Below, one piece after another: positions 4,965 to 39,186 of a stretch of 39,186 nucleotides of DNA. The position numbers were made by a program, and so were the translations under genes. The notes below the pieces were generated by a model. That model saw nothing but the letters and a program-made list of their open reading frames with translations. It did no database searches and was not told where the DNA came from. The DNA is taken from assembly GCA_014804975.1 (NCBI GenBank), contig JAAUYT010000037.1, positions 1-39,186 on the forward strand. The letters run 5' to 3'. The number at the start of each line of letters is the position of its first letter. Within the stretch, counting starts at the first letter, position 1. The DNA comes from Clostridia bacterium (lineage in GTDB: Bacteria; Bacillota; Clostridia; Christensenellales; Borkfalkiaceae).

Positions 4965-7900
4965 ATGACGGAGCTTACGGAAAAAGAAAAAGGTAAAATA
5001 TCCTTTCATACGGCAATCCCGCGGTACGCGGGTTATTGCGATTGCTTTTTGAGCACGAAAATACAATTTCGCTTGGAAAACCAAAACGACAGAAGCGTGC
5101 TTCTCAAAGTCAGGGGCGGGGAGAGCGAGCTCTTTCTTCCCTTTGAAAAAGAGGCGGAAGTGGGCTTCGAGAGCGCGGTATCCTTGAACGCGGACAAAGT
5201 ATTCTCGCCCCGCTTTTTGGCGGAAAACGAAACGATCAGAAATTTCACTTTCCACGCCGATCTTTTTTGCGGTGACGAAAAGATAACCTCGAAAGAGGCG
5301 GAAATCACCGCGCTTCCCTTCGACTATTGGGAAGGGCTTTTCGGCGTTCCCGAAAAGGTCTCCTGCTTCGTGCGCCCGCGGGCGTTTCAGACGGCGCGCG
5401 TCGTAAAGGAAGTGAAGCACCGTCTTTTAAGGTGCGGCGTAAGAGATTTTTGCGGCTACGAAAACGCGGATAAGAGCGAAGTTAAGAAGGCGGTCGCGGC
5501 ATTCTTTTCCGCCGTCAAGGAGATGGGGTTCACCAAATCGGGCGGCTTCGATCTATCCTATCCGTCGCTTGCCTCTCCGCCTGCGGTGACCTCCGCACGC
5601 AAGACGGACGCCTTCCGCCTTGCCCTCTTTACGGCGGCGTGTATGGAGCGGGCGGGGCTTCACGCCGTGCTTGCGCTCTCGAAAAATAAAGTCGGCGTGG
5701 GGGCGTGGCTCTTCGACAGCTGTTTTTTGGAGAGCTCCTTCGACGACTTGAAAACGGTGGAACGCTATCTTAGGGACGATCACCTTGCGTTCTTTAATGC
5801 GGAAGACCTGTTCACGGAGAGCGTAGCGGAAGCGTCAGATTCCGAAGAGCGCTTTTTGCGCGAGCTCAAAGCGGATGCATTCGATTGCTTTGTCGATATT
5901 GCCCGTTGCCGCACTGCGGGCTTTGTGCCCTGTCCCGCGCGCGGGGAAGTCGGCTGCGGACTGTACGGAGAGAGCGAAGAGAACACGCCGAAGGTGGGCA
6001 AGGCGTTTGCGCGGCAGGGCAAGGAAAAGCTTTGGGAGAGGGGACTTTTGGACTTCTCCTCGCGCAATCCGCTTCTCGATTTTAAGGGAAAGAACGCCCT
6101 GCAAGTGCTTGCGCCCGATGCGGATATTCTTATGAAATATCTTTCAAAAGACGGGTTAAAGCTCACGGGCGGCGGAAAGGTCGACTGCGGGCGCGAACTG
6201 CTTGACGAGGTGAAGGACGGCGTTTTGAGAACGGCGCTCTCCCCGCGCGAGACGGAAGCGGTTGCGGGCAAATTAAGGCGCAGGAACCGCGAGGCGGTCG
6301 AGGAGACGGGCGCGAAGATTTTATTTCTTGCGTGCGGGTTCTTGAAGTTCGGCGCGAGGGAAGAGCGCAAATGCGCCCCCGTCGTTCTGCTGCCCGTAGA
6401 GCTCAGCCGTGCAAAGGGGAAGGAGGGATATGCGCTCACCTCTTCGGGGGAGTACTTCGTCAACCTGACCCTCGTCGAATATTTGAAACAGGAATACGAA
6501 ATCAATTTAAGGGGGATCGAAAATTCCGCGCTTTCCGTCAAGGAAATTTTAAACGTTTTCAGGAAGGAGACCTCCTCTATGGCGGGGTGGGAAGTGAGCG
6601 GGGAGCTCTATCTTTCGACCTTCTTCTTTCAGCGTTTTTTAATGTGGAACGACTTGAAGGAGCACTTTCAGGAGTTCAACAAGAACCGCGCCGTGCGTGC
6701 GCTCTACTTCGGAAAGTCGCAGGAGCTGTCCGCACAGGAGAGCGAGCCCGAAGCGGAGGATATGTCGCTGCCCCTTCCCTCGGACGCGTCGCAGCGAAAG
6801 GCGCTCGCTCTTTCTAAAAGCGGCAAAAGCTTCGTTCTGCACGGTCCCCCCGGCACGGGCAAGAGCCAGACCATTACGAACATGATCGCGCTTGCGCTCG
6901 AAAAAGGGAAAACCGTCTTATTCGTCGCGGAGAAGAAGGCGGCGATCGACGTCGTAAAGCGGCGGCTCGACGAGATCGGGATCGGTGATTTCTGCTTGGA
7001 GCTCGGCTCCAAAACGGACTGCGGAGAAGCGTTTAAACAGCTCGACAAAACCCTGCGTTTAAAAGGGAAGTCGAATGAAGAGGACTTTGCAATTACGGAA
7101 GAATATAAAAGGGCGCAGAAGGAGCTTGCCGCCATGCAAAACGCCCTGCACGAAAAGCGCAAACTGTCCCTCTCCGTGCACGAGGCGATCACGAAGTTTT
7201 TCGAACGCAAGAGCTATCCCGATATTTTGAAGATGGGCGGTGATTTTTACGAGTCGCTCGATGAGGTGAAATTTATAAAGGCGCGGGAGCTCATCCTTTC
7301 CGCCGCTGCCGCCGCAAAGGAGTGCGGGGGCGTGTTCAATTCCCCCTTCGAGAACTTCAATTTGAAAGAGTACTCTCCCGCCGTGCGCGACAGAGCGGTG
7401 TTTGCGGGGCGGGCGCTTTTAGGGGAAGCCGCGCACTTTAAGTGTTTTCTCTCCCTCGTGCTCGACTTTTTCAAGCAGAAAATTTCCTCGTTCACCGAGG
7501 AGAGAGCGAACGCGCTTGCAAAGGTTTTAAGCGGACTTCTTTCGGGAAAATACCGCGCCTATTTTGAGGGCGTGACCGCAGAAGAATTTTCCGCGTTCAG
7601 AAGCGCGAATCTTCGGCTTGATTCCTGTCTTGCCTTTTATGAAAAGCATTTCAAAATTCTCTTGAATCTCGAAGAAGAGTTCACTGCGCTCGAAGAGTTT
7701 TTAAAGTCGGGCGGGGACTATAAATTGAACCGCACCGCGCTTTCGCTCAGAAAACGGTTGGAGCGCGTTGCTCTTCGTCCGCTTTCGGAAAAGGATATTC
7801 CGAAGTATATCGAGGCGGCGGTCGGCGTGTTCAGCGCGCGCAAACAAATTGCGGCAAGTCCGCTTGCAAAGAGCTTTATTGACCGCGGCGGGCGCATTTC

Positions 7901-10421
7901 GGAGAAGAAGCGGACGGAGTTTCTTGCCCCCTTAAAGGAACTCTCAGCTGCCTGCGCCTTTGTATTCACCGAGTGGGCGCCCGAGCTCTTTTTCGACGGC
8001 TGCGTCCGCGCTGTAAGCGGCTGTGCGGAGCCTCTGTTTTCGGGTTATCTCTCGGCAATGGAGGAATTTTTCAAAGCGGAGGAGAGCTATCTCGTTGCCA
8101 CGGGAGCGAAGCGCGACCGCTTCAAAGGCGAGGATATTTTGGGGTACTTTTCCGCAAAGGCCGCCGCGCTCTTGGAGAACGCCGACCTACTCAGCGGGCG
8201 GTGCGCCTATAAAGCGGCGGAAGAGGAGCTTATAAACGGCGGAATGAAGTTTATCGGCGACGCGCTCGAAAGCGGCTCTCTCTCCCCCGACGACGCTCTG
8301 GGCGGGTTTGAAAAGAGTTTGATGGAGCATTTCCTCTCCGTGAATATTCCGCGCGATCTCTTTCTTTCGCGCATGACGAGTGCAAGCGTGGAGAGCGAAA
8401 AGGAAAAGTTTGCCCTTCTCTACGAAAAGCAAACGGCGTATGCAAGGCGGCGCTTGCGCGAAACCTTGATAAGCCGCCTGCCCGAGCGGGGAGAATTTCA
8501 GGAGGAGCTTTCCCTCCTGTTCCGTCTCGAAAAGGGGGCGCGGCGGGGGCGGCTGAGGACTCTGCTTTTGGAAGCGCCCAAACTCGTCAAACGCGTGTGT
8601 CCCTGTCTGTTACTCAGCCCCGACGCGGCGGCGCAGTACCTTGCGCCCAAGGCGGACGAATACGATCTCGTGATTTTCGACGAGGCCTCGCAGATGACGA
8701 CGGCGGAGGCGATCCCCGCCCTTGCGCGGGCAAAGCAGGCGGTCATAGTCGGCGACAACCGTCAGCTCCCGCCCACCTCCTTTTTCCGCACCTCCTTCTT
8801 CGGGGAGGAGGACGAGGAGGAATCTCTTGAAAGCGTTCTGGACGAGGCGATCGCGGCGGGCTTCGAAGAGCGGAGCTTGCTGTGGCACTACCGCAGCCGT
8901 CACGAAAGCCTGATCGCCTTTTCAAACGCCGCCTACTACGAGAACCGCCTCAACACCTTTCCCTCTCCCGTAGCTTCCGAGAGCAGAGTCAAGCTCAAAA
9001 AGGTCGGGGGCGTGTACGACAGGGGGAACACCAAGCGCAACAGGCGGGAAGCGGAAGCACTTGCGGAAGAGGTGATAAGAAGGCTCTTGGATCCCGTGCT
9101 TTCGCGGCAAAGCATCGGCGTCGTGACCTTTTCGAACGTACAGCGGGAGGAGATCGAAAGGATACTCACCCGCGAAATCGCGAAGCGCTCGCTTGAAGAA
9201 ATTGCCTACGGCGGCAGGGAGCCCCTCTTCGTGAAGAACCTCGAAAACGTGCAGGGGGACGAGCGGGACGTCATTCTCTTTTCGGTGTGCTACGGCTTCG
9301 ACAAAGAGGGAAGACTCTCCTATAACTTCGGCGCGCTCAACCGCGCGGGCGGGTGGCGGAGGCTCAACGTTGCGTGCTCCCGCGCCCGCGAAGAGATGCT
9401 CGTGTTCTCCTCGATTTCGGCGGGGGATATCGATCTCAACCGCACTTCGTCGAGGGGCGTTGCGGGGTTGAAAGCATTTTTGGAATTTGCGGAAAAGGGA
9501 CGCGCGGCACCTCTTCCCTTCGACGGTGCGAAAAGGCGGGGGATCGGAAAGTATCTTGCCGAGGAGCTCTCCGCCTACGGCTACGAGTGCCGCGCGGGCG
9601 TGGGAGCGAGCAATTTCAAAATCGAGGTCGCCGTGCTCGATCCCAAGGATAAGAACCGCTATATCCTCGGCATTCTCTCGGACGGAGCGGCGGAAAGCTC
9701 CGCTGCGGACGGGGCGGCGCTCCTTCCCGCGCTTCTCAAACGCGGGGGCTGGAATCTTATGACGGTGAGCGAGGTCTCCTATTTCAATAACCCCAAGCGG
9801 GAAATCAAGCGCATTAAAGACCGTCTGGACGAATTAACGGGTGCGAATCAGGAGAGCGGGCTCACGCGCTATATAAAGCCCTACCGCCACGTTCGGGACA
9901 CGGGCGGCAAGACGCTTGCGTTCGTCACGGACGGCAAGAACGATAACGAAATCAAAGAGCGGCTTTGTGAGATCGTCGCAAGGGAAGAGCCCATCTCCCG
10001 CGCCTTTTTGAAAAAGCGCTGTATGGAGAGCTTCGGGATCGTAAAGTGGGGACTTCACGCGGAGAGCCGCCTCGACGAGATCATCACCCGTTCCGCTTTC
10101 CCCTTCGAAAAGGTGGGAGGAGTAGAATACTTCTATAAGAATCCCAAATCTCTTTTGCCCGTCAAGTTCAGAATCGAGGGCAAGAACAAGCGCCGCAGTG
10201 CGGAAGAGGACTTTACCCCCTTCGAGACCGCCGCGCTCATCAAGGGCATTCTCGAAGAGAAGGTCACCCTCTACGACGACGAGCTCGCTTCCCTCGTGGC
10301 GGCGGAGTACGGGGTCAAGGAGACGGACGCGTTTTCCTCGTTCGTTTCGCGCACGCTCGCCTACGGAGAGGGGAAGGGAATGTTCCGCCGCTCCCTTTCG
10401 GGAAGAATTTCTCTTGCGTAA
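4965..10421 (+). CDS. Giant (1818 aa) DUF4011 / SF1 helicase / Vsr-like nuclease fold / DUF3320-type protein
   Basis: LLDFSSRNPLLDFKGKN (DUF4011-like), VLHGPPGTGKSQTITNMI (Walker A), YDLVIFDEASQM (Walker B), LPPTSFF, WHYRSRHESLIAFSN, ENVQGDERDVILFS, LNVACSRAREEMLVFSS; C-terminal YILGILSDG and DUF3320-like tail. Confidence 0.9.
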   Translation: MTELTEKEKGKISFHTAIPRYAGYCDCFLSTKIQFRLENQNDRSVLLKVRGGESELFLPFEKEAEVGFESAVSLNADKVFSPRFLAENETIRNFTFHADLFCGDEKITSKEAEITALPFDYWEGLFGVPEKVSCFVRPRAFQTARVVKEVKHRLLRCGVRDFCGYENADKSEVKKAVAAFFSAVKEMGFTKSGGFDLSYPSLASPPAVTSARKTDAFRLALFTAACMERAGLHAVLALSKNKVGVGAWLFDSCFLESSFDDLKTVERYLRDDHLAFFNAEDLFTESVAEASDSEERFLRELKADAFDCFVDIARCRTAGFVPCPARGEVGCGLYGESEENTPKVGKAFARQGKEKLWERGLLDFSSRNPLLDFKGKNALQVLAPDADILMKYLSKDGLKLTGGGKVDCGRELLDEVKDGVLRTALSPRETEAVAGKLRRRNREAVEETGAKILFLACGFLKFGAREERKCAPVVLLPVELSRAKGKEGYALTSSGEYFVNLTLVEYLKQEYEINLRGIENSALSVKEILNVFRKETSSMAGWEVSGELYLSTFFFQRFLMWNDLKEHFQEFNKNRAVRALYFGKSQELSAQESEPEAEDMSLPLPSDASQRKALALSKSGKSFVLHGPPGTGKSQTITNMIALALEKGKTVLFVAEKKAAIDVVKRRLDEIGIGDFCLELGSKTDCGEAFKQLDKTLRLKGKSNEEDFAITEEYKRAQKELAAMQNALHEKRKLSLSVHEAITKFFERKSYPDILKMGGDFYESLDEVKFIKARELILSAAAAAKECGGVFNSPFENFNLKEYSPAVRDRAVFAGRALLGEAAHFKCFLSLVLDFFKQKISSFTEERANALAKVLSGLLSGKYRAYFEGVTAEEFSAFRSANLRLDSCLAFYEKHFKILLNLEEEFTALEEFLKSGGDYKLNRTALSLRKRLERVALRPLSEKDIPKYIEAAVGVFSARKQIAASPLAKSFIDRGGRISEKKRTEFLAPLKELSAACAFVFTEWAPELFFDGCVRAVSGCAEPLFSGYLSAMEEFFKAEESYLVATGAKRDRFKGEDILGYFSAKAAALLENADLLSGRCAYKAAEEELINGGMKFIGDALESGSLSPDDALGGFEKSLMEHFLSVNIPRDLFLSRMTSASVESEKEKFALLYEKQTAYARRRLRETLISRLPERGEFQEELSLLFRLEKGARRGRLRTLLLEAPKLVKRVCPCLLLSPDAAAQYLAPKADEYDLVIFDEASQMTTAEAIPALARAKQAVIVGDNRQLPPTSFFRTSFFGEEDEEESLESVLDEAIAAGFEERSLLWHYRSRHESLIAFSNAAYYENRLNTFPSPVASESRVKLKKVGGVYDRGNTKRNRREAEALAEEVIRRLLDPVLSRQSIGVVTFSNVQREEIERILTREIAKRSLEEIAYGGREPLFVKNLENVQGDERDVILFSVCYGFDKEGRLSYNFGALNRAGGWRRLNVACSRAREEMLVFSSISAGDIDLNRTSSRGVAGLKAFLEFAEKGRAAPLPFDGAKRRGIGKYLAEELSAYGYECRAGVGASNFKIEVAVLDPKDKNRYILGILSDGAAESSAADGAALLPALLKRGGWNLMTVSEVSYFNNPKREIKRIKDRLDELTGANQESGLTRYIKPYRHVRDTGGKTLAFVTDGKNDNEIKERLCEIVAREEPISRAFLKKRCMESFGIVKWGLHAESRLDEIITRSAFPFEKVGGVEYFYKNPKSLLPVKFRIEGKNKRRSAEEDFTPFETAALIKGILEEKVTLYDDELASLVAAEYGVKETDAFSSFVSRTLAYGEGKGMFRRSLSGRISLA

Positions 10422-15539: not shown

Positions 15540-17843
15540 ATGAAAAAGAAGTTTTTATCGCTTGGCCTCCTTCTCGCTTGTTGCTTATGTCTGATCTTCG
15601 GACTTGCGGCGTGCAACAGGGGGGGGGTACTATTTAAGGTCTCGGTAAAAGAAGACAACGGCTATACCGTTCAGGGCATCAATGCCAACGGTTATAAAGA
15701 AGGCGACGAAGTTGCGTTTACGGTTACAGTCACCGGCGTATACAAGCAATTGAAAGAAGTTTCGGCGGACGATCAAGTTCTCACCGTTCAGGAAGACGGA
15801 TCGTATAAGTTTACGATGCCGAAGAAAAACGTAGAAGTCTCCGTCGTTTTGGAAAACAAGGAGTTCGTGGTATCGCTGTCCTTGACTTCGGTTGTTCTGA
15901 ATGCGAAAACCTCTGATTCCGTAAGCATTACGGCGACGGTAACGCCGGATCAAGACGGGTTGGAACTCGAATGGAAAACCGGCAACAAAGACGTAGCAAC
16001 GGTTTCGGCGAACGGAAAAACTGCTGAAATCACTGCGGTTGCAAAAGGTGAAACGAATATATCCGTATCGATCAAGGGCATCGACGGCATCGTAGCGTCC
16101 AGCACCGTATCCGTTATCAACGTGAGACCGTGGACGGAAGCCGAAGAAGCGGCTATGAAAGAGCATTTGTACGGCATCGTTCTCAAACCCACGGAAAAGG
16201 ACGATATGCTTGCGAAATGGGACGCAAATTACGGTCAGATTACCATAGAAGGCGATTGGGTCGAGGGCAACGAGCTTGCCGAGTATGCCGAGCAATATAC
16301 CGCACAAGACGGTTGGGTAGACGTGACGCATTTGTATTCGGTTGGGGCAGGTACTGCCTACATATTCGAGAAAGCGGTCGAAGTTTCCGGGGAGACGAGA
16401 TACGTTCGCGTATTCATTTACGCAATTGAGGACGAGTCAAGCGGTGAATTATCCAAAGAGGGTAGTTTCTACATCACGGCGTACGACCCGTACGTCTACG
16501 AATGGCCCGCTAATTATTTGAGGGATTGCCTGAAAGAAGTTCTTTCGACGACTGTGATTCCTTCTGTCTCCGCCCAACATTATTATCTTAATAATTACGG
16601 CGTGACGGCTTATTACGATTCTGCCGAAAAAGACGGCGGATACGGAGCTATTTTGACGGCAGCCGGCTATACGGTGGAAGAGAAAGACGGATATTACAGC
16701 GCAGTATCTCCCGACGAGCTGTTTAGCCTGGCGTATATCTATAAAGACGGCGCTTTGGAAATTTCGATAAGATATTATATGGACGGCTCTTGGCCCTCAA
16801 AAGCCGTTGCGAACGCTTTTAATTATTATAAAGCCATAGACGTGACTGCCGGGGTAACTGCTTTCGTAGTTCCCGAATTCGAAGGTGACGACGTTTCGTT
16901 TATGTTTGCTGACAATATCTATAATAAGTTCTGGATCAACGAAGGTAGAGAACGCGAGATATACGGAACGATAACCGTAACGGACTCGACTTCGGCTCTT
17001 ACCGAGGCTTACTTGCAGAAACTTCTCGATAACGGTTGGGTTGCAGTCGGAACGGACGGAACTTACATTAAGCCGATTGCGGAAAGCAATCAGGTAAACA
17101 AAATCAAGGTAAACTTCGAGAATGAAAAAACGCTCATAACCATTGATTATTTCTCGATCAAAGACCCGACTAAGGGTTGGAACGACGATTTAATCAAAGA
17201 AAATAATATGTTCTATAAATACTGTACGGATATCCTTCCCGAATATACCGGTGAGATAACTGCATTCTCCGTAGATAAGGATACCGTCTATATTACCGTG
17301 CCCGAAGAAGACTTTGCCGATTTATTGGACACATACAAACAGATACTTTTGGATGCGGGTTTTGTGCTCACGGGAACTTCGACTTGGACTCAGCAGTACG
17401 TTTCCCCGAACGGACAATATGGTCTAAAACCGAGTGTTCGTTCTTCCGTACCGAATACTATTCAAATCTACTTTTCCAGCGAAATGCCTTCGGCATGGAA
17501 TGATGGCAGAATAGAGGACAGCTTGCAGCTTATAGGCTCTTCTGTCAAATCCATTCCCCTGTTTGAATCGGAAACGAGCTTCTTGTGCTTATATGAGATA
17601 AAAAAAGATTATTCCACGAACAAGGATTATTTGAGGATTACGATTTCGGCGAGCGAGTCGGGTGAAACGATTTCCCAAGATGATCTTGACGCATATAAGG
17701 CAATACTCGTGGCGGATGCCGGCTGGACTCAGGATGCCGAAAACGCCAATAAATTTGTGGCAAGCGACGGAACAACGATAACGTTATCTTACTCATCATA
17801 TAGCGGCAGCGTTACCATTGAAATCAAATACGTTGCGGCATAA
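15540..17843 (+). CDS. Large lipoprotein with a Big_2-like Ig domain and degenerate tandem repeats
   Basis: Lipobox LAAC; VVLNAKTSDSVSITATVTPDQDGLELEWKTGNKDVATVSANGKTAEITAVAKGETNISVS is Big_2-like; repeated W…/…AG[WFY]… units after it. Confidence 0.75.
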   Translation: MKKKFLSLGLLLACCLCLIFGLAACNRGGVLFKVSVKEDNGYTVQGINANGYKEGDEVAFTVTVTGVYKQLKEVSADDQVLTVQEDGSYKFTMPKKNVEVSVVLENKEFVVSLSLTSVVLNAKTSDSVSITATVTPDQDGLELEWKTGNKDVATVSANGKTAEITAVAKGETNISVSIKGIDGIVASSTVSVINVRPWTEAEEAAMKEHLYGIVLKPTEKDDMLAKWDANYGQITIEGDWVEGNELAEYAEQYTAQDGWVDVTHLYSVGAGTAYIFEKAVEVSGETRYVRVFIYAIEDESSGELSKEGSFYITAYDPYVYEWPANYLRDCLKEVLSTTVIPSVSAQHYYLNNYGVTAYYDSAEKDGGYGAILTAAGYTVEEKDGYYSAVSPDELFSLAYIYKDGALEISIRYYMDGSWPSKAVANAFNYYKAIDVTAGVTAFVVPEFEGDDVSFMFADNIYNKFWINEGREREIYGTITVTDSTSALTEAYLQKLLDNGWVAVGTDGTYIKPIAESNQVNKIKVNFENEKTLITIDYFSIKDPTKGWNDDLIKENNMFYKYCTDILPEYTGEITAFSVDKDTVYITVPEEDFADLLDTYKQILLDAGFVLTGTSTWTQQYVSPNGQYGLKPSVRSSVPNTIQIYFSSEMPSAWNDGRIEDSLQLIGSSVKSIPLFESETSFLCLYEIKKDYSTNKDYLRITISASESGETISQDDLDAYKAILVADAGWTQDAENANKFVASDGTTITLSYSSYSGSVTIEIKYVAA

Positions 17844-35319: not shown

Positions 35320-35544
35320 ATGGCTATTTCGTTGCGCGTAACCGAAAAGGAAAACGAACTCATCAAATCTTTTGCGAAACTCTACGGAGAATCCGTTTCG
35401 GAATATATCCGCCGCACCGTCATGGAGCGTATCGAGGACGAATTCGATTTACAGTGCTATCATACGGCAAAAGCCGAATACGACGAGAATCCCGAAACCG
35501 TAACCACCGAAGAGCTTGCCAAAGAGTTGGGCATTGATTTATGA
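35320..35544 (+). CDS. RelB/DUF6290-like antitoxin
   Basis: MAISLRVTEKENELIKSFAKLYGESVSEYIRRTVMERIEDEFDL (RHH-like). Confidence 0.8.
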   Translation: MAISLRVTEKENELIKSFAKLYGESVSEYIRRTVMERIEDEFDLQCYHTAKAEYDENPETVTTEELAKELGIDL

Positions 35545-35813
35545 TAAAGTTTCGGGTCGAATGGTCTTTAAGGGCGCAAAAACAAATGCGGAAATTCGAT
35601 AAATCTATTTCCGAATTGCTTTTGCGTTGGGTACATAAAAATTTAGACGGCTGTACGAATCCGCGCCAACACGGAAAAGCGTTGACCGCAAACCATGCGG
35701 GACAATGGCGCTACCGTGTGGGGGACTATCGGCTTATCGCCGAAATCGAAGACGACAAAGTTATCATTTTGATACTTTCCGTCGGGCACCGTAAAGAAAT
35801 ATACGAGAACTGA
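35541..35813 (+). CDS. RelE/ParE-family toxin
   Basis: VEWSLRAQKQMRKFDKSI…GQWRYRVGDYRLIAEIEDDKVIILILSVGHRKEIY; ATGA overlap with antitoxin. Confidence 0.88.
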   Translation: MIKFRVEWSLRAQKQMRKFDKSISELLLRWVHKNLDGCTNPRQHGKALTANHAGQWRYRVGDYRLIAEIEDDKVIILILSVGHRKEIYEN

Positions 35814-35866: not shown

Positions 35867-36511
35867 TTAAAGTTTCGAGTATCCGTAGCTATTCACGACG
35901 GCGTCTACCTTGACTCCCGCCTTACAGAGGGGACATTCGTTAGGCGCGTAGGAATCGTATTTGCCGATATCCATTGCATAGAAAAGTCTTTCCACGGGAA
36001 CGGAGAATTCGCCCACGTTAATTTGTTCGCCGAATTCGCCGCCGAACACGGTCGCCGCGCCTGCGGGCGTTCCGCCGTAGTAGACGATCCCTTCGAGCGC
36101 GCTTTTCAGCGTCATACCCGTCGTCGCCGTGGCAGTCAAAAGAAGCACGCTCTTATGCTGTACGTAGGGAACGAGGTTGTCCCTGAGAAAAAGTTTTTCG
36201 TTCGTGATTTCGGGCGTGATGACCGCGATATTCCGATCGACGTTGATGCCCGTTTTCGTAAGCTCCTCGGCAAGGAACGCGCCGATCATCTTCGTGCGTT
36301 CGAGCGTGATGACGGTATCGACGGGTTCGTTTTGAAAGCGGGCGGCAAACAGCTTTGCCGCGGCGCGGGCGCTCACCGATTCCGACTTGACGCGCGTCAT
36401 ATCGATAAAGTGGCTTACGTGCGAATGCTGCGTTGCAAAGTGTCCGTCCACGATTTTAATCGTCACTTGTCTGTTGCGCGCGGAAATGAGTTCGTAGGTA
36501 TCGTTATTCAT
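35867..36511 (-). CDS. Orotate phosphoribosyltransferase-like protein
   Basis: PRTase-like VDTVITLERTKMIGAFLAEEL and VLLLTATATTGMTLKSALEGIVYYGG; C-terminal CPLCKAG. Confidence 0.7.
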   Translation of the reverse strand: MNNDTYELISARNRQVTIKIVDGHFATQHSHVSHFIDMTRVKSESVSARAAAKLFAARFQNEPVDTVITLERTKMIGAFLAEELTKTGINVDRNIAVITPEITNEKLFLRDNLVPYVQHKSVLLLTATATTGMTLKSALEGIVYYGGTPAGAATVFGGEFGEQINVGEFSVPVERLFYAMDIGKYDSYAPNECPLCKAGVKVDAVVNSYGYSKL

Positions 36512-36624
36512 AAATATGTTTCCCCTTAACAACATTTTAATATAAAACGGCGGCGTTGTAAAGGGCGAAAGAAAATTTATTTTAAAAAAATAAGAAAATT
36601 TTTACAATTTAATTATGAAAAGTG

Positions 36625-36667: not shown

Positions 36668-36709
36668 GGAAAATGAGGTTTAAACGTTAAGGAGAAGGCG
36701 GAGAGATAT

Positions 36710-38053
36710 ATGAAAAAATCAAAAGATCGTCTTCCCGAAAGAGGCAACGGAAATTCCTATAACGGTTACGGCTACGGGTATCCGCAGAACGGCTACGGTT
36801 ATTCGCAGGACGGGCATCAACAAAACAATGCGTATCAGCCAAGTGGCGGCTACGGCGGTTATCAGCAGGAGGGTTATCCGCAGAACGGCGGATATCAGCA
36901 ACAGCAGAATAACGGCTACCCCAATTACCAACAGGAAGGCTATCCGCAAAGCGCTTATCAACAGAACAACGGGTATCAGAACGGTTACGGCTACGGCTAT
37001 CCCGGTTACGGTTACCCCGGTTACGGTGCGTACGGCGGTTACGGAAGCTACGGTGGTTACGGCGGCTACGGTGGCTACGGCTATGGCTATCCCGGTTACG
37101 GTTATCCCGGCTACGGCGGATACGGCGGTTACGGAGGTTATCCCCAAATGAACTATATAGCGGACAACTATCCGCAGGAAGATTACGGAAATCCGTACGC
37201 CACGAACGGGCAGGCACAACCTGAAAACGGAACGGTCGCGGCTCCGCAAAACAATGCACAGCCTGCGGCGGCGCAACAACCCGCAACGCAAGCTCCCGTG
37301 CAAACGGTTTCGCAGCCCGCTCCCGAACCTGCACCCGGGCCCGCTTCCGAGCCCGTAGAGGCGCCTGCACCTGCGGCGCAACAGTCGGCGCAAGAAGCGC
37401 AACCTGTTCAGCCTGCGCAGCCCGCACCTGATCAACCCGCACCCGCGCAGCCCGCTCCCGAGGAGACGACGGAGCCTGCTCCCGCAGAAACGCCTGGGCC
37501 GCAAGAGACACCCGCACCCGAAACTGCGACGGCGCCCGAGACGGCGGCACCGCAAGCGGACGCGGAGAGCTCGTTGAACGGGAATGAAGAGACCGCATCC
37601 GAGGAAGGTTCTTCCGAAGAGGTCGATCCTTTGAGGGCGGAGGCGGAAGATCTCAAACGCAAGTGGTACGCGGTCACTGCGGAGTACGAAAACTACCGTA
37701 AGCGTACTGCGAACGTCAGACAGGAAGCCTATCTTGAAGGAAGAGCGGATATCGTAAAGAAACTGTTCCCCATCGGGGATAACCTCGACAGAGCGGTCAA
37801 GAGCTGTCAGGACGAGACGACGAGAAAGGGTATCGAAATGGTGCTTGCCGCATTCGACAAGCTGCTCGAATCGGAAAATATCACGGTGATCGATCCTGTG
37901 GGGCAACCCTTCGATCCGAACGAATGCGAAGCAATCATGGCGAATGATCCCGTAGAGGGGCAGGAGAGCGGCATCGTAACCGAAGTGTACGTGAAGGGTT
38001 ACGCACAAAACGGAAAGGTGCTCCGTTACGCGCAAGTCATCGTAACGAAGTAA
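36710..38053 (+). CDS. grpE: GrpE nucleotide exchange factor with a ~300-aa low-complexity N-terminal extension
   Basis: C-terminal LKRKWYAVTAEYENYRKRTANVRQEAYLEGRADIVKKLFPIGDNLDRAV…GIVTEVYVKGYAQNGKVLRYAQVIVTK; dnaK follows. Confidence 0.93.
   Translation: MKKSKDRLPERGNGNSYNGYGYGYPQNGYGYSQDGHQQNNAYQPSGGYGGYQQEGYPQNGGYQQQQNNGYPNYQQEGYPQSAYQQNNGYQNGYGYGYPGYGYPGYGAYGGYGSYGGYGGYGGYGYGYPGYGYPGYGGYGGYGGYPQMNYIADNYPQEDYGNPYATNGQAQPENGTVAAPQNNAQPAAAQQPATQAPVQTVSQPAPEPAPGPASEPVEAPAPAAQQSAQEAQPVQPAQPAPDQPAPAQPAPEETTEPAPAETPGPQETPAPETATAPETAAPQADAESSLNGNEETASEEGSSEEVDPLRAEAEDLKRKWYAVTAEYENYRKRTANVRQEAYLEGRADIVKKLFPIGDNLDRAVKSCQDETTRKGIEMVLAAFDKLLESENITVIDPVGQPFDPNECEAIMANDPVEGQESGIVTEVYVKGYAQNGKVLRYAQVIVTK
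36980..37142 (+). repeat. Degenerate short tandem repeats encoding GGYG/YPGYG units
   Basis: Repeated ggctacgg/ggttacgg and taccccggttacgg units in frame. Confidence 0.8.
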
Positions 38054-38104: not shown

Positions 38105-39186
38105 ATGGGCAAAGTAATCGGTATCGACTTAGGTACTACCAACTCGTGTGTTGCTGTGATGGAGGGCGGCGAGCCTATCGTCATCACGAATGCGGAAGGA
38201 GCCCGCACGACCCCCTCCGTCGTAGCGTTCCAAAAGGACAATTCCCGTATCGTCGGTCAGGTCGCAAAGCGTCAGGCGGTTGCGAACCCCGATAAGACGG
38301 TTATTTCCATCAAACGCCACATGGGTTCCGATTTCAAGGTGAAGATCGACGATAAGAAATATTCCCCTCAGGAAATTTCCGCAATGATCCTGACCAAACT
38401 CAAAGACGACGCAGAGGCGTACCTCGGCACGACGGTTACGGACGCAGTTATTACCTGCCCCGCATACTTCACCGACTCCCAGCGTCAGGCAACCAAGGAC
38501 GCGGGCAAGATCGCGGGACTTAACGTTCTTCGTATCATCAACGAGCCCACGGCGGCGGCTCTTTCCTACGGACTTGACAAGGGCAAGCAGAGCGCGAAGG
38601 TCATGATCTACGACCTTGGCGGCGGTACGTTCGACGTTTCCATTCTCGAAATTTCCGACGGCGTGTTCGAAGTTCTTGCGACCCGCGGCGACATGATGCT
38701 CGGCGGTGACGACTTCGATAAAAAGCTCATGGACTACATGATCGACGAATTCAAGAAGTCGAACAAGGTAGATTTGGGCAAAGACAAGATCGCCCTTCAA
38801 CGTTTGAAGGAGGCTGCGGAAAAAGCGAAGATCGAGCTTTCGGCTTCCAACTCGACTTCCGTATCCCTTCCCTTCGTAGCACAGTCCGAAGAGGGCACGG
38901 CGCTCCACCTCGAAATGGAGATCACCCGTCAGAAGTTCGACGTCTTGACGAAAGACCTCGTAGACAGAACGGAAGAGCCCATGAAGCTTGCTATGGAAGA
39001 CGCAGGCGTTTCCTACAAGGATATCGATAAAATCATTCTCGTCGGCGGTTCGACCCGTATCCCCGCAGTCGTTAAGAAGGTTAAGGACATGACGGGCAAG
39101 GAACCCTTCAAGGGAATCAACCCCGACGAATGCGTTGCAGTCGGCGCGGCAATTCAGGGCGGCGTTCTCACGGGCGAAGTCAAAGA
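38105..39186 (+). CDS. dnaK: Chaperone DnaK (Hsp70), 5' portion, truncated by the window end
   Basis: [42 protein letters not shown]…[14 protein letters not shown]…[13 protein letters not shown]. Confidence 0.98.

Follow-up and report, generated by a model that had tools for sequence, protein, structure and literature searches.

We identify a GrpE whose core is preceded by an N-terminal extension of 291 residues, the first part of which is a Gly/Tyr/Gln/Asn-rich domain that is predicted to be disordered and appears to be maintained by selection at the protein level. The gene lies in the window, the whole stretch of 39,186 nucleotides analyzed here, from a genome bin of the genus Candidatus Gallimonas, which comprises uncultured Clostridia from gut metagenomes. 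GrpE is generally regarded as a simple exchange factor, and what its disordered tail does became clear only recently. A naturally occurring GrpE whose tail spans 290 residues, with an aromatic half under selection, could thus serve as a test of whether condensate-type domains place or tune bacterial Hsp70, with same-genus relatives that lack the tail as natural controls. Such a tail may let the chaperone machinery gather in droplets or hold DnaK more tightly.

An extended GrpE encoded next to dnaK

The gene is a single open reading frame (36710-38053, forward strand) with an ATG start and without internal stop, encoding 447 amino acids (Table 1). Its extension (36710-37582) continues in frame into a GrpE core (residues 292-447) that matches PF01025 at 122.1 bits (curated cut-off, 25.8), over positions 7-165 of the 165-position profile. 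The preliminary description of this DNA had reported about 300 residues of extension in one continuous frame with a normal GrpE core, and on both points we arrive at the same result. GrpE was the only Pfam family matched, and a J-domain is absent from the protein. We infer a genuine nucleotide exchange factor, its exchange function being that of the family and consistent with dnaK as the next gene. No CIRCE operator was found upstream of grpE or elsewhere in the window.

Table 1. Features of the extended grpE locus (window coordinates)
Feature	Coordinates	Strand	Details
grpE with long N-terminal extension	36710..38053	+	447 aa, stop included
Gly/Tyr/Gln/Asn-rich low-complexity domain	36710..37234	+	residues 1-175
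Pro/Ala/Gln/Glu-rich linker	37235..37579	+	residues 176-290
MNYIADNYPQE segment	37148..37180	+	residues 147-157; candidate DnaK-binding segment
GrpE core	37583..38050	+	helix 302-365, helix 369-388, C-terminal beta domain
Purine-rich Shine-Dalgarno-like stretch AGGAGAAGGCGGAG	36690..36703	+	before ATG; largely conserved in the sister species
dnaK, 5' part	38105..39186	+	adjoins grpE downstream; ends with contig

The two-part composition noted earlier, rich in G, Y, Q and N and then in P, A, Q and E, is confirmed. The Gly/Tyr block (residues 1-175) contains 48 Gly, 40 Tyr, 22 Gln, 18 Asn, and 14 Pro, and runs from a basic start, MKKSKDRLPERGNGN, through a Q/N-rich half and a GYGYPGYG half to the conserved PQMNYIADNYPQEDYGNPYA. 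Ser and Arg account for 6 and 2 of its 175 residues, RGG is absent, and the first 150 residues are almost uncharged, with 5 basic and 5 acidic residues. The linker that follows is composed largely of Ala (31), Pro (28), Gln (17), and Glu (12). The sole Ile of the extension is found in the MNYIAD segment and is kept in the sister species described below.

Several neighboring genes were also observed. Divergent to grpE is a gene for a 222-aa protein (35867-36535, reverse strand) without Pfam match that looks phosphoribosyltransferase-like by eye, and that adjoins grpE in the window, in the sister genome, and on a further contig of the window bin (C2). Beyond it lies a toxin-antitoxin-like small pair (35320-35813), in which a ParE-family toxin gene comes after one for a DUF6290 protein; no DNA match to this stretch was found in the sister genome. 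Farther away, positions 4965-10421 encode an 1818-aa protein with a DUF4011, AAA helicase, and MTES_1575 nuclease-like mix of domains, which we take to be of the kind seen in anti-phage systems.

Predicted disorder and regular tyrosine spacing

The extension is predicted to be disordered. In an AlphaFold2 model based on an alignment of 16 sequences, where low pLDDT serves as a proxy for disorder, the mean pLDDT of 10-residue blocks is 38-51 over residues 1-300, and no secondary structure is seen before residue 302. The core, modeled as two helices and then beta strands, has block pLDDT values of 73-92 over residues 311-447, and its closest solved structures are GrpE proteins, including 4ani and 1dkg (PDB).

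In each species, none of 2000 shuffles was as even in its tyrosine spacing as the block itself; GY dipeptides number 30 for 40 Tyr, and YY is absent. In sticker-and-spacer models, even aromatic spacing is typical of liquid condensates and not of solid aggregates. It may also have arisen incidentally as short repeats expanded; the grpE DNA contains imperfect tandem arrays of 9-27 nt. By the Michelitsch-Weissman rule, a prion-like domain has at least 30 Q/N per 80 residues, and the extension just passes in both species, with 31 in the window and 37 in the sister. The prion-like composition proposed in the preliminary description is therefore supported, and its likeness to FUS holds in part: the tyrosines are evenly spaced and mostly follow Gly, but Ser is scarce and RGG is lacking. 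As no signal peptide and no hydrophobic or membrane stretch was found in the sequence starting MKKSKDRLPERGNGN, the protein should be cytosolic, and the cell-surface role that had also been suggested is unlikely.

Conservation and selection in a sister species

The same extension, at the same locus and with the same flanks, was recovered from a separately assembled MAG of a sister species (G092; JAIDSX010000110.1), the DNA being 80-91% identical to the window locus over the aligned parts (L032/L052). Common to both species are the start MKKS[K/R]DRLPERGNGN, the order of the blocks, and the segment PQMNYIAD.YPQEDYGNPYA. In this single comparison of two species, we obtained a dS of 0.78, a dN of 0.065, and a dN/dS of 0.08 for the Gly/Tyr block, and a dS of 0.80, a dN of 0.088, and a dN/dS of 0.11 for the GrpE core (Nei-Gojobori), values that point to purifying selection on the block as strong as that on the core. 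An alignment of DNA only, without protein guidance, counts 20 differences at first, 18 at second, and 53 at third codon positions, and its five gaps (42, 3, 3, 3, and 6 bases) are all multiples of three. The non-repetitive residues 1-41 alone show 10 synonymous and 3 nonsynonymous changes. Together, the dN/dS values, the codon-position pattern, the frame-preserving gaps, and the counts in residues 1-41 argue that the extension is translated and held by protein-level selection. The linker, with 47% identity over 64 aligned codons and several large indels, seems to evolve freely and so would act as a spacer.

These data bear on two ways in which the extension could be misleading. An assembly artefact had been named as a possible refutation, together with the lack of any such extension in related genomes; the window bin is indeed fragmentary and includes one chimeric-looking contig (C2), yet the recurrence of extension, locus, and flanks in an independent assembly refutes an assembly or binning artefact for practical purposes, and we give it next to no weight. 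The extension could also be real DNA that is mostly bypassed, with an internal Met, e.g., Met147, as the main start and the Gly/Tyr block rarely translated or present in a second isoform. One Shine-Dalgarno sequence had been reported before the first ATG, and the purine-rich, Shine-Dalgarno-like AAGGAGAAGGCGGAGAG does precede it; it is not the only candidate, however, as TACGGAGGTTATCCCCAAATG, identical in the sister, puts a perfect GGAGG 10 nt upstream of Met147. Against such a start, Tyr-Gly-Gly-Tyr codons can yield GGAGG by chance, and the longest identical run (31 nt) is not above expectation under codon-pair shuffling (p = 0.43), so that conservation of the site is no better than chance. 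Moreover, the part of the block that precedes Met147 evolves under protein-level constraint, which implies that it is translated. We therefore rejected Met147, and consider an internal main start highly improbable.

Distribution and origin of the extension

The search of GrpE homologues for extension length and composition, suggested in the preliminary description, was run here. With the first 172 residues as query, the extension was detected in 2 of 103 genomes of the genus, i.e., the window genome and its sister; a further match, in G019, scored 17 bits, contained an internal stop, and was discarded as meaningless. GrpE open frames in the genus are mostly near 200 aa, versus 458 and 430 in the extended pair. 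The tails of the other members, where readable, are short, charged, and mostly acidic, in agreement with the earlier statement on ordinary GrpE, and the extended tail occupies their place.

Across the 396 order-level genomes searched, no GrpE matched the tail. The best matches at this level are Gly/Tyr/Phe-rich linkers of small J-domain proteins (E-values, 5e-7 to 2e-4), a likeness that we read as compositional. Among these J-domain proteins, L162 to L165 have a GGYGGYG or GGFGGYG linker following the J-domain and a Cys-rich C-terminal tail (e.g., ...CRFCYC). At the level of the phylum (150 genomes), other GrpE frames reach at most 357, counted stop to stop. Long frames in G041, G055, G020, G014, G721, and others were rejected as being stop-to-stop frames or having charged or Ala-rich tails, with no Gly/Tyr tract, in a reading that left out G764 (frame 357). 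Within the searches made, with partial samples of order and phylum, such a GrpE appears confined to one small uncultured gut lineage, and we found none described in the open-access literature that we searched.

In a tree of the GrpE core and DnaK, the pair stands beside the rest of the genus (64 tips, support 100), and the simplest history would thus be a gain of the extension on the stem of the pair. Loss of the tail in the other members of the genus is a possible alternative. An origin by fusion with another gene was rejected, as no other Gly/Tyr protein was found in either genome of the pair at an E-value of 0.1. A horizontal origin of dnaK was likewise rejected, since the best matches outside the pair lie within the genus (82-85%).

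A second grpE and the divergence of DnaK

The window bin (57 contigs, 77% complete) contains another grpE-dnaK locus on contig C2 (L132), with an ordinary GrpE. C2 is 66-79% identical to the sister genome over grpE and 5' dnaK and 81-95% identical, mostly about 90%, over the 3' part of dnaK, dnaJ, and purine genes. This jump crosses an N-speckled stretch of dnaK (about 15700-17000) that begins where the window contig ends, and the DnaK/grpE end of C2 groups with other Gallimonas. On these grounds we rejected the C2 gene as a paralogue. The simplest reading would be that C2 is a chimera of two species joined across the conserved dnaK, its grpE end being foreign and its dnaJ-purine end native to the bin, so that the extended protein is probably the only GrpE of its lineage, as it is in the sister genome.

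The DnaK of the pair is itself divergent. Over the nucleotide-binding domain (window positions 38105-39186; L142), identity between the pair and the other members of the genus is 83.8%, compared with 94.2% among those other members and 98.6% within the pair. At 24 positions of this domain that are nearly fixed in the genus, both members of the pair are changed. The excess divergence of the pair is about 2.8-fold for the nucleotide-binding domain, compared with about 1.6-fold for the DnaK substrate domain and DnaJ, and 1.3-fold, 1.25-fold, and 1.1-fold for TrmD, YlqF, and RimM, respectively, in a comparison based on those genomes that are nearest to the window by TrmD. DnaK could have adapted to the altered GrpE, although part of the divergence is explained by the lineage being deeper in general.

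Possible roles of the tail

The most likely role of the tail, and the best-supported reading, is weak multivalent self-association, which we put forward tentatively on the conserved architecture, the constraint, the predicted disorder, the even tyrosines without YY, and the 31 to 37 Q/N per 80 residues. The block would form a sticker-and-spacer domain of evenly spaced Tyr stickers separated by Gly/Pro/Gln/Asn spacers, and the free Pro/Ala-rich linker would connect it to the coiled coil. A GrpE dimer would present two such tails, both leaving the coiled coil at its end near the DnaK substrate-binding domain. Self-association could then lead to reversible GrpE clusters or to recruitment into stress-induced assemblies, possibly under stress control of the tail, and DnaK might be carried along via GrpE. 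A precedent is the essential Rho of the gut bacterium Bacteroides thetaiotaomicron (BtRho), which gained a disordered region driving phase separation and gut fitness (PMC10284900, PMC13269538). Against condensation, BtRho works by charged motifs and RNA, whereas the tail is almost uncharged; moreover, the even spacing could stem from short-repeat growth, and only two species carry the tail. A stronger version, in which GrpE scaffolds a chaperone condensate, its tail phase-separating and gathering DnaK, and the 24 changes in DnaK are an adaptation to it, seems unlikely.

The matches to J-protein linkers suggest a second mechanism, absent from the preliminary description, in which the tail engages the DnaK substrate-binding domain and MNYIAD or the tyrosines act as a weak pseudosubstrate, tuning client release and complex lifetime. 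The tails of E. coli GrpE compete for the DnaK substrate site via an Ile-Ile-Met motif (PMC12915176), substrate release is blocked when M. tuberculosis GrpE lacks 42 tail residues (PMC10803776), and the Hsp70 substrate-binding domain recognizes the GF-linker of DNAJB6, and that of DNAJB1 when collapsed (PMC12126530). The retention of MNYIAD, with its Ile, in the sister makes it a natural candidate motif. However, a short motif would be enough for a pseudosubstrate, which does not need some 175 constrained residues with even Tyr, and the modest E-values of the J-protein matches are of a compositional likeness; we regard this mechanism as a real but somewhat unlikely contender, and one that is not mutually exclusive with condensation. 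The tail might, finally, be mostly passive, as an entropic bristle or as a repeat expansion that drifts slowly and is tolerated without being used. Imperfect tandem arrays in the DNA, the drift of the linker half, and a GrpE N-terminal length that varies across the phylum fit this picture, but the dN/dS of the Gly/Tyr block is as low as that of the folded core, the constraint extends to the non-repetitive flank, and a synonymous divergence equal to that of the core speaks against recent homogenization, all of which make passivity improbable.

Comparison with known systems

In its core fold, with a long helix and a beta domain, and in its adjacency to dnaK, the protein resembles the canonical GrpE of E. 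coli, M. tuberculosis, and Geobacillus. In E. coli and M. tuberculosis, the disordered N-terminal tail acts on the DnaK substrate-binding domain (PMC12915176, PMC10803776). Those tails are short, however, with 33-42 residues removed in the cited work against 291 here, and the nearly uncharged, Gly/Tyr/Gln/Asn-rich first half of the tail sets it further apart.

The extended GrpE also parallels BtRho, both being housekeeping proteins of a gut bacterium with a lineage-specific low-complexity region that includes a prion-like Q/N part (PMC10284900, PMC13269538). Unlike BtRho, whose condensation needs charged motifs and RNA, the present tail, a candidate for condensation, is Tyr/Gly-rich and belongs to a chaperone co-factor. 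As in the Gly/Phe linkers of J-proteins (DnaJ, DNAJB1, and DNAJB6) and the Gly/Tyr linkers of L162 to L165, an aromatic-glycine tract is found on an Hsp70 co-chaperone, though with Tyr for Phe, in an N-terminal position, at much greater length, and without a J-domain. Finally, even tyrosines, high Gly and Q/N, and predicted disorder are shared with FUS-type domains and yeast-like prion domains, from which the tail differs in having very little Ser, no RGG, and no nucleic-acid-binding domain, and, for the FUS type, no serine-rich SYG/Q repeats.
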